Shown in pieces: positions 1 through 6,588 of a DNA stretch of 64,000 bases. Below the pieces are notes generated by a model. It was not told the origin of the DNA, ran no database searches, and saw only the letters and a list, made by a program, of their open reading frames with translations. A program made the translations under genes and the position numbers. Position 1 is the first letter of the stretch, and each line of letters opens with the position of its first letter. Source of the stretch: an uncultured Pelagibacteraceae bacterium (GTDB lineage: Bacteria > Pseudomonadota > Alphaproteobacteria > Pelagibacterales > Pelagibacteraceae). The stretch is from contig CACJDW010000005.1 of assembly GCA_902592275.1 (NCBI GenBank), forward strand, positions 1-64,000, written 5' to 3'.

Positions 1-758
1 TTTGGATTTCCCTTAGTTTTTAAATAATTAGCTGTGTATCCGTTTTTTGGTTTAGTGGTCATAAATCCATTTAATTTAAATCCAAATGGTACGTTTAATT
101 TTTTGATTTCTTCAAGATTGTGATCATAATTTTCAGGTGAAACACAAGACAACATAACGCCTAAAAGATTTCCATCAATAATACTTTTAATATCTGAAAT
201 TTTTTCACCACTAGGTAGCTTTGTGCCTTCTGAAATATGAATTCCTATTAAATAAGGTTTTTTGAATTCTTTAATTGCCTCAATACCACATTTAAACTCT
301 CTAATGCTGCTCCAAACATCAAAGTAATAAAAATCTACATATTCATTTAATAATCTAGCCTGTTCATTAAAGTCTTTAGTGATTTCAACCTCACTTCTTA
401 TATCCTCTTCATAAGTTAAACGTTGAGGTGGCAAACCTCCAGCAATCATTATATTTGGATATTCATTTTTCACTTTTAAAGCAATTTCTCCTGCTTTCTG
501 ATTAAGATATTCAAATTTATCTTCAATATTGTTTTCACTTAGTCTTTTTCTTCTTGTGGTAAAAGTTGTTGTAACAATTACTTCTGCCCCAGCTTTTACA
601 AAATCTTTGTGAGTACTCTCTACCAATTCATGATATTCAGAATTTAGTATCGCATTAGCACTCCATAAAGTTCCATTTGGCTTCATGCCTCGAGCCAAAA
701 GCTCTTGACCCATTCCACCATCCAATATTCTCGTCTCTTTAAAAAAATTAATATCCAT
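1..758 (-). CDS. bhmT: Homocysteine S-methyltransferase family protein (partial, C-terminus off window)
   Basis: The gene is not in the ORF track because it runs off the left edge; 252 N-terminal residues are visible. The motif DGGMGQELLARG at about residue 13 and the following VTTTF strand match the N-terminal barrel of the homocysteine S-methyltransferase family (MmuM/BhmT type), which makes methionine from homocysteine using a small methyl donor. The zinc-binding cysteines would lie in the missing C-terminal part, so the donor (betaine, S-methylmethionine or other) cannot be judged. The start ATG at 756-758 follows a GTGAGG ribosome binding site. Two SAM-type aptamers lie in its leader, which fits methionine-cycle control. 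The symbol bhmT rests on my recollection that SAR11 bhmT carries such a tandem. Confidence 0.82.
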   Translation of the reverse strand, partial: MDINFFKETRILDGGMGQELLARGMKPNGTLWSANAILNSEYHELVESTHKDFVKAGAEVIVTTTFTTRRKRLSENNIEDKFEYLNQKAGEIALKVKNEYPNIMIAGGLPPQRLTYEEDIRSEVEITKDFNEQARLLNEYVDFYYFDVWSSIREFKCGIEAIKEFKKPYLIGIHISEGTKLPSGEKISDIKSIIDGNLLGVMLSCVSPENYDHNLEEIKKLNVPFGFKLNGFMTTKPKNGYTANYLKTKGNP

Positions 759-763
759 TTTTT

Positions 764-823
764 CCTCACTTTTTTAGTGCTTTAGCTTTATGCTAGGTGC
801 ACAATACAGTTCAACTACCTTGC
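764..823 (-). promoter_or_regulatory. SAM-V-type riboswitch (proximal aptamer) overlapping the ribosome binding site
   Basis: Read on the minus strand, the leader has a short stem AGGT/ACCT, a loop with the core ACTGTATTGTGC, then CATAAAGCTAAAGCAC. UAUUG followed by AUAAAGCUAAA is the conserved core of the SAM-II/SAM-V pseudoknot fold. Loop GTGC (802-799) can pair with GCAC (780-777) to make the pseudoknot. The element ends at the Shine-Dalgarno GTGAGG, so control of translation is likely. Assignment to SAM-V rather than SAM-II is by position and by recollection of the SAR11 tandem. Confidence 0.68.
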
Positions 824-839
824 TTATTTGATTATTTTG

Positions 840-888
840 GGATTTCCATTTTAGCAGTTTATGCCCGCAATAGGATCAAATCGGCAAT
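840..888 (-). promoter_or_regulatory. SAM-II-type riboswitch (distal aptamer)
   Basis: On the minus strand the sequence reads TGCC, GATTTGATCCTATTGC, GGCA, then TAAACTGCTAAAATGGA. The stem is TGCC/GGCA and a pseudoknot can form between loop TCC (875-873) and GGA (847-845). The blocks GATTT...ATTGC and TAAA..GCTAAA match the SAM-II core as I know it from the Sargasso Sea metX aptamer. It lies about 80 bases upstream of the methyltransferase start and is followed by a second aptamer, so it may act on transcription rather than initiation. No clear terminator is visible just after it. Confidence 0.7.
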
Positions 889-920
889 TATCTTTTAATA
901 TATAAATGAATGTTTGTAAA

Positions 921-1511
921 CTATTTATCTGAAATAATTTTAACATTAAAAGAAAAAGATCTTCTTTCAGCATTAATATTAAATGGATATGCAGTATGCA
1001 TCAAATAGTTTGGAAAAATTATCAAGTCTCTTTCTTTAGGCACAATATTAAAAATACTTCTGCTTAAAAAACCCTTTTGTCCGTTTATAAAATCAATTGT
1101 GCCATTCGTCTTATCTTTTTTATTTTTTAAAAGTTTATTTCTAGTCATATTTTTTGGGACTTTTAAATAACCCACACCGGATATATCTCCATCATGATAA
1201 TGAATAGGGTTATATTCATCTTTAAATTGACTAACTACCCATAAATTTAATATTTTTATATTTTTAACTTTTTTAATTTTTTCATTTTTAAGAAAATCTT
1301 TGATATTTTTTTTTATTTCTCTCTCTAAATTCTTTTTTATAAAATTATTTGAAATTTTAATTTCTTTTTTAATTTGACTAGCTAGTTTAGAGCTATAATT
1401 GTTTTTTTTTGTTAAAACTTTATTATCAATCTCTTTATTCAAGATATTTAAAAATTTCTTTGAGATTTTTGTTTTTCCAATTGATGGACCAAAAGGCTTA
1501 AAATTTTTCAT
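921..1511 (-). CDS. Putative 2OG-Fe(II) oxygenase
   Basis: The 196-residue protein has a C-terminal half typical of small 2-oxoglutarate/Fe(II) dioxygenases of the 2OG-FeII_Oxy_5 type. HYHDGDISG gives an H-x-D iron pair near residue 105, IIFPNYLMHTAYPF gives the distal His, and ERRSFSFNVKI gives the Arg that would hold 2-oxoglutarate. The lysine-rich first 70 residues are not recognisable. The substrate is unknown. It stands alone, downstream of the methyltransferase leader and in the same direction as the TauE gene behind it. Confidence 0.72.
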   Translation of the reverse strand: MKNFKPFGPSIGKTKISKKFLNILNKEIDNKVLTKKNNYSSKLASQIKKEIKISNNFIKKNLEREIKKNIKDFLKNEKIKKVKNIKILNLWVVSQFKDEYNPIHYHDGDISGVGYLKVPKNMTRNKLLKNKKDKTNGTIDFINGQKGFLSRSIFNIVPKERDLIIFPNYLMHTAYPFNINAERRSFSFNVKIISDK

Positions 1512-1548: not shown

Positions 1549-2295
1549 TTAAGCAATAAGTTTAATCCCCATTCTTATTGCGACAAAAATTACAAGAAAA
1601 GAAGTTAGTAGAGCTAAAATTTTATTCGATAAAAATTTAATGTTTAATAAGCTACCAATTTGTCCTCCAATAAGTACCGATAAAAATAATGGCCAATAAG
1701 TAATAACTTGATCTAAAACCTGATCTTTTGTCAGCTGTCCAGCTATTCCAAAGATAGAATTGATTAATATAAATAAAGATGCACTGCTGGTGATATGCTT
1801 AGGGTATCCAGCTTTCATTAAAAATAGAAGAGGGCTTAAAAAAATTCCTCCACCAATTCCTACTATGCCTGACATAAAGCCAATTATCGATCCAAAAGAA
1901 ATTGAGATTAATCTTGGTATTTTATTAATTTTAATTTGCTCTTTATTAAAAGATTTACTTTCAATTAATAAAAAAATGCCTGCAACCATCAAAACACAAA
2001 ATAATAAAATCTCAAATAAACTTTTTTCAATTTTTATTGATCCTCCAATAAAGGCAAAAGGTATGGAGCCAATTAAATAAGGAATAAGTAAATTAAAGTT
2101 TATATTCTTAGATCTTATAAAATTAATAGAATTACCAGATACAACAATAATATTACACACAAGGGCTATAACGGGAAATATTGTGTAAGGTACACCCCAA
2201 ATTAAAAGTATTGCAAGATATGTTGAGCCTCCCCCAAATCCAACACTTGAGTATATTAAAGCAGTTACAAAAAAAAGAATTGATAATATAATCAT
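1549..2295 (-). CDS. TauE/SafE family membrane transporter
   Basis: This is a 248-residue polytopic membrane protein with about eight hydrophobic segments. The two half-repeats carry glycine-rich motifs (SSVGFGGGSTY near residue 16 and GIVGIGGGIFLSPL near residue 145) that mark the sulfite exporter TauE/SafE (DUF81) family. Members move sulfonates, sulfite or related organic anions across the inner membrane. Nothing nearby names the substrate. It is divergent from moaB with only 9 bases between the two starts, so both promoters must overlap the coding ends. Confidence 0.85.
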   Translation of the reverse strand: MIILSILFFVTALIYSSVGFGGGSTYLAILLIWGVPYTIFPVIALVCNIIVVSGNSINFIRSKNINFNLLIPYLIGSIPFAFIGGSIKIEKSLFEILLFCVLMVAGIFLLIESKSFNKEQIKINKIPRLISISFGSIIGFMSGIVGIGGGIFLSPLLFLMKAGYPKHITSSASLFILINSIFGIAGQLTKDQVLDQVITYWPLFLSVLIGGQIGSLLNIKFLSNKILALLTSFLVIFVAIRMGIKLIA

Positions 2296-4209: not shown

Positions 4210-6588
4210 ATGGCAAGTTTAGTAGGTTCTAGAGTTGAAAGAAAAGAGGATAAAAGATTTTTAACTGGCAAAGGTAGATATACAGCAGATATTAATTTAG
4301 CAAATCAAACTTACGCAATTTTTGTTAGGTCTCCACATGCAAGAGCATCTATAAAAAAATTAAATATTGATAAAGCATTAAAATCATCAGGAGTAGTAAG
4401 CATACTTACTGGAAAAGAAATAGCAGATGATAAAATTGGAGGTTTGATAGCAGGTTGGGCAATTAGAAGTGAAGATGGTACAGAAATGAAATGTCCAGGA
4501 AACCCTCCACTAGCTAAAGATAATGTAAATTTTGTTGGAGACCCTGTTGCTGTTGTAATTGCTGAAAGTTTAACAGAAGCAAAAGAAGCTGCGGAAAAAG
4601 TTGAAGTTGATTACAAAGTATTAAAAGCAGTAACAAGTACTGCAGATGCAATGAATGGAGATACCATCCACGAAGGAATTGATAAAAATCTTTGTTTTGA
4701 CTGGCTATTAGGCGATAGACAAAAAGTTAAAGAAGCATTTGATAAGGCTGACAAAGTAATTTCTATCGATATCATTAATAATAGATTAATTCCAAACGCA
4801 ATGGAGCCAAGAGCATGTGTTGCTGATTACAATGCAGCATCTGAAGAGATTACTTTATATACAACAAGTCAAAATCCACATTTATCAAGATTGATAATGT
4901 CTGCTTTTGGAAATGTAGCTCCTGAACATAAGTTAAGAGTTGTGGCTCCAGATGTTGGTGGTGGTTTTGGTTCAAAAATTAATGTCTATAACGAAGATAT
5001 TGTTTGTAGCTGGGCAGCTAAAAAAATTAATAGAGCTATTAAGTGGGTTGCAGAAAGATCAGAATCTTTTTTAACTGATATTCATGGAAGAGATCATGTT
5101 ACTCATGCAGAATTAGCGGTTACTAAAGATGGAAAGTTTCTTGGTTTTAAAAATGAAACTATAGCAAACCTTGGAGCTTATGCTCGGGTATTTGGCACAG
5201 TGACACCAACTTATTTATTTGGACCTTGTGCAACTGGAGTTTATGAAATTCCAGCAGCTTATACAAACGTCAAAGCTGTATATACAAATACAGCTCCAGT
5301 AGATGCTTATAGAGGTGCAGGAAGACCAGAGGCTACATACACAATTGAGAGATTAGTTGAAAAAGCTTCTATGGAATTAGGGATAGATAAAACTGAACTT
5401 AGAATTAAAAATTTCCCTACAGCATTTCCTTTTAAACAGACATTAGTTCATACAGTAGATTCTGGAGATTATGTTGCTGGAATGGAAAAAGCTAAACAGA
5501 TGGCAGACTATAAAGGTTTTGAGGCAAGAAGAAGAGAGTCTGAAGCTAAAGGCAAGCTAAGAGGTATTGGTGTTACTTCTTATTTTGAAGCATGTGGTAT
5601 TGCCCCTTCTGCTGCAGTAATGTCCTTAGGATGTGGAGTTGGATTATGGGAGTCTGCAGAGGTTAGATTTAATCCAACTGGACAAGTTACTGTTTACACA
5701 GGTTCACATAGTCACGGACAAAGTCACCAAACAACTTTTGCTCAAATAGCAGCGGATGAGTTAGGTGTACCAATAGAAAATATAGACATTGTTCATGGAG
5801 ATACAGATAAAGGAACATTTGGAATGGGAACCTATGGTTCTAGATCTTTAGCTGTGGGCGGTATTGCTATTGTTAATGCTTGTAAAAAAATAGTTGAAAA
5901 AGGTAAAAGAGTTACAGCAAAAATGTTAGAGGCAAATCCTGAAGATGTTGAGTTTAAAGATGGTGAATTTATTGTTTCTAAGTCGAATAAAAAGAAAACA
6001 ATTGGAGAAGTAGCTTTTGCTTGTTATTTACCTGGTGTTAGAGATGAAATGAAATCTCCATTACCAGAAGGTGATGAGCCTGGTTTAAAAGAAACTTCTT
6101 TTTATGACCCTTCAAACTTTTCTTTTCCAGCAGGGACACATATTGCAGAAGTTGAGATAGATCCTGAAACAGGACATGTTAAGCTTGAAAAATATACAGC
6201 TTGTGATGACTTTGGAAGAATAATTAATCCAATGGTTGTAGAGGGACAAGTTCATGGAGGTCTTGCTCAAGGTATAGGTCAAGCATTGTATGAAAATGCA
6301 GAGTATGATGAGACTGGTCAGTTGATGACAGGGTCTTATATGGATTATACGATGCCACGTGCAGATAATTTTCCTGAGTTCAATATTGGTTATACTTGTA
6401 CACATGCAACCACAAATCCTTTAGGAGTTAAAGGTTGTGGAGAAGCTGGAGCTATAGCAGCACCACCAACAGTAATGAATGCTGTAATTGATGCTTTAGG
6501 TGGACAGGAAGTTACTATGCCAGCTACGGCTGAAAAAGTGTGGAAGGCTTGTAAAAATCTAAAAAAATCTAACTCAAAAGCAGCATAG
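4210..6588 (+). CDS. Form II CoxL-like molybdenum hydroxylase large subunit
   Basis: The 792-residue protein is a full-length catalytic subunit of the xanthine dehydrogenase/CO dehydrogenase family: N-terminal Ald_Xan_dh_C-like domain, then the Moco-binding domains with VGGGFGSK, and GVKGCGEAGAIAAPP carrying the catalytic Glu near the C-terminus. The active-site loop is AYRGAGR (residues 366-372). Bona fide form I CO dehydrogenase has AYxCSFR, so this is form II and CO need not be its substrate. The start follows a strong AAGGAGG site. Its cofactor is expected to be molybdopterin cytosine dinucleotide, matching the MocA-like gene downstream. Confidence 0.92.
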   Translation: MASLVGSRVERKEDKRFLTGKGRYTADINLANQTYAIFVRSPHARASIKKLNIDKALKSSGVVSILTGKEIADDKIGGLIAGWAIRSEDGTEMKCPGNPPLAKDNVNFVGDPVAVVIAESLTEAKEAAEKVEVDYKVLKAVTSTADAMNGDTIHEGIDKNLCFDWLLGDRQKVKEAFDKADKVISIDIINNRLIPNAMEPRACVADYNAASEEITLYTTSQNPHLSRLIMSAFGNVAPEHKLRVVAPDVGGGFGSKINVYNEDIVCSWAAKKINRAIKWVAERSESFLTDIHGRDHVTHAELAVTKDGKFLGFKNETIANLGAYARVFGTVTPTYLFGPCATGVYEIPAAYTNVKAVYTNTAPVDAYRGAGRPEATYTIERLVEKASMELGIDKTELRIKNFPTAFPFKQTLVHTVDSGDYVAGMEKAKQMADYKGFEARRRESEAKGKLRGIGVTSYFEACGIAPSAAVMSLGCGVGLWESAEVRFNPTGQVTVYTGSHSHGQSHQTTFAQIAADELGVPIENIDIVHGDTDKGTFGMGTYGSRSLAVGGIAIVNACKKIVEKGKRVTAKMLEANPEDVEFKDGEFIVSKSNKKKTIGEVAFACYLPGVRDEMKSPLPEGDEPGLKETSFYDPSNFSFPAGTHIAEVEIDPETGHVKLEKYTACDDFGRIINPMVVEGQVHGGLAQGIGQALYENAEYDETGQLMTGSYMDYTMPRADNFPEFNIGYTCTHATTNPLGVKGCGEAGAIAAPPTVMNAVIDALGGQEVTMPATAEKVWKACKNLKKSNSKAA

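Follow-up and report, generated by a model that had tools for sequence, protein, structure and literature searches.

What controls the homocysteine methyltransferase gene that runs off the end of this SAR11 contig, and what might its leader do with two apparent aptamers for the same ligand? The window, meaning the whole 64,000-nucleotide stretch of DNA analyzed here, carries the gene and its leader on the minus strand. The original prediction placed two SAM aptamer cores in this leader, a SAM-II-type element followed by SAM-V, and both cores are indeed present at that place in the sequence. The downstream product is a homocysteine S-methyltransferase (PF02574, 1.5e-37 by Pfam), as had been proposed, and its ORF is cut by the contig end. 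The letters AGTGAGG before the start codon are retained in most related leaders. The gene start and the proximal element have the following features.

756 to 758, minus strand: ATG start codon of the homocysteine S-methyltransferase ORF (758-3)
764 to 767, minus strand: Shine-Dalgarno GAGG, 5 nt 5' of the AUG in the sequence
766 to 829, minus strand: SAM-V riboswitch aptamer (RF01826, by cmscan)
806-802, 786-781, 780-777 and 769-767, minus strand: proximal core letters UAUUG, GCUAAA, GCAC and GUG, in that order, read from the sequence
817 to 820, minus strand: 5' strand AGGU of SAM-V P1, with partner ACCU at 798-795, read from the sequence
799 to 802, minus strand: 5' strand GUGC of SAM-V P2, with partner GCAC at 780-777, from the Rfam structure
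808 to 810, minus strand: P2a strand ACU, with partner AGU at 770-768 adjoining the Shine-Dalgarno GAGG (767-764), from the minimum free energy (MFE) structure of the window RNA
767 to 779, minus strand: alternative hairpin of CACU (779-776) with AGUG (770-767)

The SAM-V aptamer scores 75.9 bits against a cut-off of 41, and is the only above-threshold RNA match when the whole 64 kb is searched with the Rfam library. In relatives, P1 occurs in GGC/GCC as well as GGU/ACC forms. P2 is GUGC/GCAC in 154 of the 181 pooled relatives described below, and 16 others have the compensated pairing GUAC/GUAC. The position of P2a beside the Shine-Dalgarno sequence corresponds to the mechanism proposed for the SAM-bound form of SAM-V (PMC6061858). 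The score, the compensated P1 and P2 stems and the placement of P2a clearly mark the proximal element as a full member of SAM-V, which is predicted to bind SAM.

The GCAC strand of P2 was also expected to have a second possible partner beside the ribosome binding site, and the folding calculations bear this out. In the ensemble for the window RNA, P2 has a probability of 0.53 versus 0.36 for the CACU/AGUG hairpin. The CAC/GUG pairing is still possible in approximately 48 of 52 homocysteine methyltransferase leaders, one of which has a two-sided change to UACU/AGUA. Thus, the hairpin is conserved and is predicted to be nearly isoenergetic with P2. It is a reasonable candidate for the SAM-free form, which would leave most of the GAGG open.

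The distal element comprises a compact pseudoknot, termed here mini-SAM-II, and is followed by a linker that leads to SAM-V.

840 to 887, minus strand: mini-SAM-II, a compact SAM-II-type aptamer, also described by our own model R1
872-868, 861-858 and 855-850, minus strand: distal core letters UAUUG, UAAA and GCUAAA, in that order, read from the sequence
862 to 886, minus strand: mini-SAM-II P1, UGCC (886-883) with GGCA (865-862), which has two-sided changes in two pairs
845 to 875, minus strand: mini-SAM-II pseudoknot P2/P2a, UUGC (870-867) with GC (855-854) and AA (852-851), and UCC (875-873) with GGA (847-845), paired in the alignment
820 to 832, minus strand: linker AUCAAAU (832-826) and GCAA (823-820), the complement of the mini-SAM-II arm UUGC (887-884) and AUUUGAU (881-875), a helix in the MFE structure
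893 to 921, minus strand: probable promoter, with TTTACA (-35 like), 17 nt and TAAAAG (-10 like)
921 to 1511, minus strand: upstream neighbor, a putative 2OG-Fe(II) oxygenase (PF13759)
1549 to 2295, minus strand: neighbor further upstream, a TauE/SafE exporter

A search with covariance models had been named as the check on both aptamers, and the outcome is divided: SAM-V is recovered easily, but the distal element scores just 15.3 bits with RF01726 (SAM-II; cut-off 44; aligned at 891-841) and 12.9 bits with RF00521 (SAM_alpha; cut-off 36). These matches appear only when the 152-base region is scanned alone, with E-values of 1.1 and 0.84 over 4227 families, or roughly 2-3e-4 for one family named beforehand. 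The element is no chance match, since 160 of 399 genomes of the genus retain it in the corresponding position 5' of SAM-V. The failure to reach the cut-offs does not discriminate, because the published SAM-II of bhmT in HTCC1062 (L337) is also missed, with no Rfam SAM-II match listed at E-values up to 2. Two other bhmT SAM-II elements (L031 and L033) score only 21-23 bits against the cut-off of 36, so the Rfam threshold is an unfair test for SAR11 SAM-II RNAs. The Rfam library appears to be blind to SAR11 SAM-II.

The letters that the distal element shares with SAM-II (GAUUU, UAUUGC and GCUAAA) are invariant in 36 distinct aligned sequences, which contain 23 invariant columns. Structure cells are 95.7% paired, versus 21-62% on sliding the register. 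P1 has four pairs, two of which show two-sided changes (eight such cells), and its inner three pairs are 100% paired across 181 copies. P2 and P2a are 98-100% paired, and show little covariation because both helices are nearly invariant. This conservation points to a shortened SAM-II-type aptamer and a putative SAM binder.

To determine how widely this arrangement occurs, 111 distinct SAM-V leaders were collected in three ways: 150 related genomes were searched for SAM-V, the leader itself served as a DNA query, and named genomes were scanned for a SAM-V pattern. Nearly every named relative that carries such a leader belongs to the Pelagibacteraceae, which identifies the window's genome as a draft SAR11 genome. 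Among leaders thus picked by SAM-V criteria, the compact element is found in 22 of 22 methyltransferase and 64 of 70 metY leaders. The six metY exceptions are two whose compact element differs from the search pattern by one substitution (L087 and L111), one cut by a contig end (L180), one without an upstream element (L041), and two with a full-size SAM-II (L106 and L136). None of the 14 bhmT leaders has the compact element; in each, a terminator or U-run comes after a longer SAM-II. Besides the matches in the genus given above, model R1 has matches in 131 of 397 genomes of the order, representing 6 of 13 genera. Pooling yielded 181 distinct compact tandems, nearly all before metY or homocysteine methyltransferase genes.

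The linker from GCUAAA to UUGAAC is 28-38 nt in all 181 copies, and in the window the aptamers lie approximately 20 nt apart. No intrinsic terminator was found between the aptamers in the window, and T-runs of six or more occur in only 6 of the 181 linkers. A terminator-free compact tandem therefore appears, from these alignments, to be the usual state of SAR11 metY and mmuM leaders. The same is evident in HTCC1062 (our genome G462 is taken to be this strain), in which the compact element is directly 5' of SAM-V in both the metY and mmuM leaders. The R1 matches at 732857-732907 (minus strand) and 1005760-1005810 (plus strand) fall within the intergenic regions of mmuM (732778-732938) and metY (1005679-1005890) given in Table 1 of PMC2704228, which assigned only SAM-V to these regions in 2009.

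Across methyltransferase (52) and metY (123) leaders, the promoter-like hexamers are kept at a fixed distance, although a strict consensus promoter scan gave no match at this leader. From these conserved hexamers, it is probable that transcription starts within a few bases of mini-SAM-II P1.

Other arrangements of these elements also were observed. One methyltransferase leader (L298, G046:C1:13708-15307) keeps the compact aptamer but has lost SAM-V, and thus represents a natural deletion. In two leaders from other genera of the family (L338 and L340), the compact SAM-II-type element occurs alone before a metX-like ORF, and is followed by an AAAUCG/CGAUUU hairpin that adjoins the start codon; these are candidates for a translational SAM-II. 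In one leader from another genus (L339), metY is preceded by a compact element, then a strong terminator and then SAM-V, an arrangement that is possibly an evolutionary intermediate. The window's own genome has a SAM-II-like match of 32.9 bits, below the cut-off, before a probable metX start (L076, G000:C3:38895-38954).

Above-threshold SAM-V matches also occur in viral contigs of IMG/VR: L210 at 5572-5637 (plus strand), L218 at 4452-4517 (plus strand) and L224 at 4387-4451 (minus strand). They precede a small ORF whose N-terminus is signal-like (MNKIVKIICGLYFIIFF...), next to a permuted tmRNA. The L224 contig carries a glutamine riboswitch too, and the ORFs of L210 look phage-like by eye. Viral matches to the compact-element pattern were rejected as chance, apparently within coding sequence.

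The linker holds a further feature. In the ligand-free MFE structure of the window, the 5' arm of mini-SAM-II pairs with the linker (probability 0.60-0.66; duplex -9.8 kcal/mol), and the complementary stretch of the linker runs up to SAM-V P1. This arm-linker helix and the aptamer are mutually exclusive, because the arm includes both P1 and the opening letters of the ligand loop. All such folding calculations are nested and ligand-free, and ignore pseudoknots. The linker of metY leaders varies throughout, apart from UCGGUA just before SAM-V P1 (positions -11 to -6; 1.5-1.9 bits), and AUCGGUA is complementary to UGCCGAU in the 5' arm of the upstream aptamer. This motif is absent from the bhmT leaders, which have a different upstream SAM-II, and therefore it is not a requirement of SAM-V.

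Gene labels for the pairing counts over 181 copies were set by the Shine-Dalgarno pattern, which misplaces a few methyltransferase leaders among those of metY; class-specific claims rest on protein-based labels where possible. In the metY-type copies so labeled, arm-linker cells are 90.6% paired at the true register, versus 4.0-48.7% at slides of 1-3. Pairing at slide +4 is 79.7%, because the arm can also pair with the GGC strand of SAM-V P1, and a second register is possible. The mean metY duplex is -10.5 kcal/mol, versus -3.9 for random 20-mers of the window, and the mean arm-linker probability in nested ensembles is 0.88 for metY and 0.42 for methyltransferase leaders. Dinucleotide shuffles of the linker separate poorly (median p 0.10-0.16), but this null is uninformative because shuffles tend to rebuild UCGGU; genome 20-mers and register slides were used in its place.

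The methyltransferase group, which includes the window, is only 47% paired at the metY register. Its members use other registers, some of them weak, with linker solutions such as AUCAAAU-AA-GCAA (window), AUUGGUA, and AUUAGU with arm GCUGAU (L053). Twelve methyltransferase clusters give a combined p of 5e-6 (with one counted as p = 1), and are individually weak. A two-sided change is seen in L053, which has GCUGAU with AUUAGU where its sisters have GCCGAU with AUUGGU, and both L113 and the mmuM leader of HTCC1062 have UACCGAU with AUUGGUA. Because the aptamer requires it, the arm hardly varies in sequence, and arm-linker covariation therefore rests on few events. Masking the upstream aptamer gives a small, inconsistent change in the predicted accessibility of the Shine-Dalgarno sequence. 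The MFE of the full leader is ordinary (z-score -0.62), a measure that says little for pseudoknots. With these qualifications, the predicted complementarity of linker and arm is a new feature beside the compact tandem itself.

These observations suggest, tentatively and with a chance that we place slightly below even, a compact double SAM riboswitch, with both aptamers acting on one gene without a terminator and an arm swap modulating SAM-V. In such a switch, SAM-V would bind SAM and form P2a alongside the Shine-Dalgarno sequence, and the homocysteine methyltransferase would cease to be translated. The upstream shortened SAM-II aptamer would be located at the mRNA 5' terminus or close to it. 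Its 5' arm (UUGCCGAUUUGAU) might, in the absence of SAM, pair with the linker, whose complement ends at SAM-V P1; once SAM is present, the arm would return to the SAM-II pseudoknot and free the linker. Since the arm has two exclusive partners, one of them SAM-dependent, the upstream aptamer should modulate SAM-V, and the response of coupled aptamers could be steeper or wider than that of SAM-V by itself. The two aptamer sequences and their conservation, the lack of a terminator, and the arm-linker complement with its end point are observed; SAM binding by the upstream element and an arm swap inside the cell are inferred. The swap could affect SAM-V in either direction, and we prefer the one by which repression and SAM-V folding are favored. 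A broader proposal is somewhat less probable: that the strand swap couples two aptamer classes into a cooperative terminator-free switch that is standard for SAR11 metY and mmuM genes and was overlooked in the model strain.

Alternately, the two aptamers might be uncoupled SAM switches, the upstream one acting on mRNA level through Rho-dependent termination, RNase access to the 5' end or pausing, and SAM-V acting on translation, so that the arm-linker helix is merely the ligand-free fold of the upstream aptamer. This is unlikely. In HTCC1062 under sulfur limitation, mmuM mRNA rises 6.1-fold and metY mRNA 7.1-fold (PMC5069961, Table 1), a change not directly accounted for if SAM-V acts on translation only, and the promoter pattern places the start of the mRNA at the upstream aptamer. 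However, reduced translation alone can lower mRNA, the window has no intrinsic terminator, long T-runs are rare in the linkers, and most linker complements end at SAM-V P1, which would be unneeded without coupling.

A less probable explanation, and one that we consider distinctly unlikely, is that SAM-V is the sole working switch and the upstream element is a remnant of an old SAM-II kept by a promoter or 5'-end role. The upstream element does score under the Rfam cut-offs, and the SAM-II domain of the bhmT tandem gave no SAM response in the full-length RNA (PMC11508383), so the upstream aptamer of the window could be silent too. However, a remnant would decay, whereas the core is invariant in aligned copies and P1 changes are compensated; the element also is kept where SAM-V is lost and used alone in other genera.

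The upstream aptamer could instead bind a different metabolite, such as SAH or methionine, and confer two-input logic. Tandem aptamers for different ligands are known in other systems (PMC9481103), and the compact P1 and L3 are unlike those of SAM-II, but the GAUUU, UAUUGC and GCUAAA letters are unchanged from SAM-II, which makes this reading very improbable. That the window tandem is simply the published bhmT-type form is the least credible reading, because, although the order and the SAM-binding cores are the same and that form is present in the same genus (L031, L033 and others) and in HTCC1062 (L337), the window lacks a terminator, its linker class is 28-38 nt in every copy, and the longer P1 and the CUAAAGCG/CGCUUUAG complement of the bhmT form are both missing.

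SAR11 bacteria rank with the most numerous cells of the sea and lack the ability to reduce sulfate. Given this abundance and lack of sulfate reduction, the gating of methionine synthesis matters for ocean sulfur. The metY and mmuM leaders have hitherto been treated as single translational SAM-V switches, and the second aptamer is a candidate for the 6- to 7-fold rise in metY and mmuM mRNA under sulfur limitation (PMC5069961). The leaders also offer a natural system in which two aptamers for the same ligand use one shared strand. Moreover, SAR11 members, a published one among them, escape the current Rfam SAM-II models.

The original SAM-V paper, by Poiata et al. in 2009, reportedly described a tandem. 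The compact tandem of the HTCC1062 metY and mmuM leaders is not annotated in PMC2704228 or PMC5069961, and an earlier mention in Poiata et al. is possible. The published SAR11 tandem consists of SAM-II, a terminator and SAM-V before bhmT (PMC9481103, PMC5069961, PMC11508383); SAM-II always preceded a terminator in the original 120 tandem examples (PMC9481103), and PMC5069961 assigns SAM-II to bhmT and metX only. The view that the tandem is already known in SAR11 thus holds for the bhmT form, but not for the form found here, which has no terminator, a shortened SAM-II, other genes and a switching helix. The window tandem is real, but distinct from the published one.

The window tandem and that of Pelagibacter ubique bhmT are alike in their order, SAM-binding cores, association with a methionine gene, and placement of SAM-V at the ribosome site. 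The bhmT tandem has a terminator between its aptamers and a longer SAM-II P1, neither of which is present in the window; the window type is distinguished by a spacing of approximately 20 nt, the shortened SAM-II, the arm-linker helix, and its metY and mmuM-type genes. Compared with SAM-V RNAs of metY and mmuM (RF01826; structure in PMC6061858), the proximal element is a full, above-threshold member. SAM-V at metY and mmuM was reported as single (PMC2704228, Table 1), whereas a second aptamer is found upstream in both. With SAM-II (RF00521 and RF01726), the distal element has in common the GAUUU...UUGC...GCUAAA core, an H-type pseudoknot and a CC/GG P2a, but it differs in its four-pair P1, shortened L3 and sub-threshold score. 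It also probably lies near the mRNA 5' end, and its 5' arm, rather than its 3' strand, complements downstream sequence.
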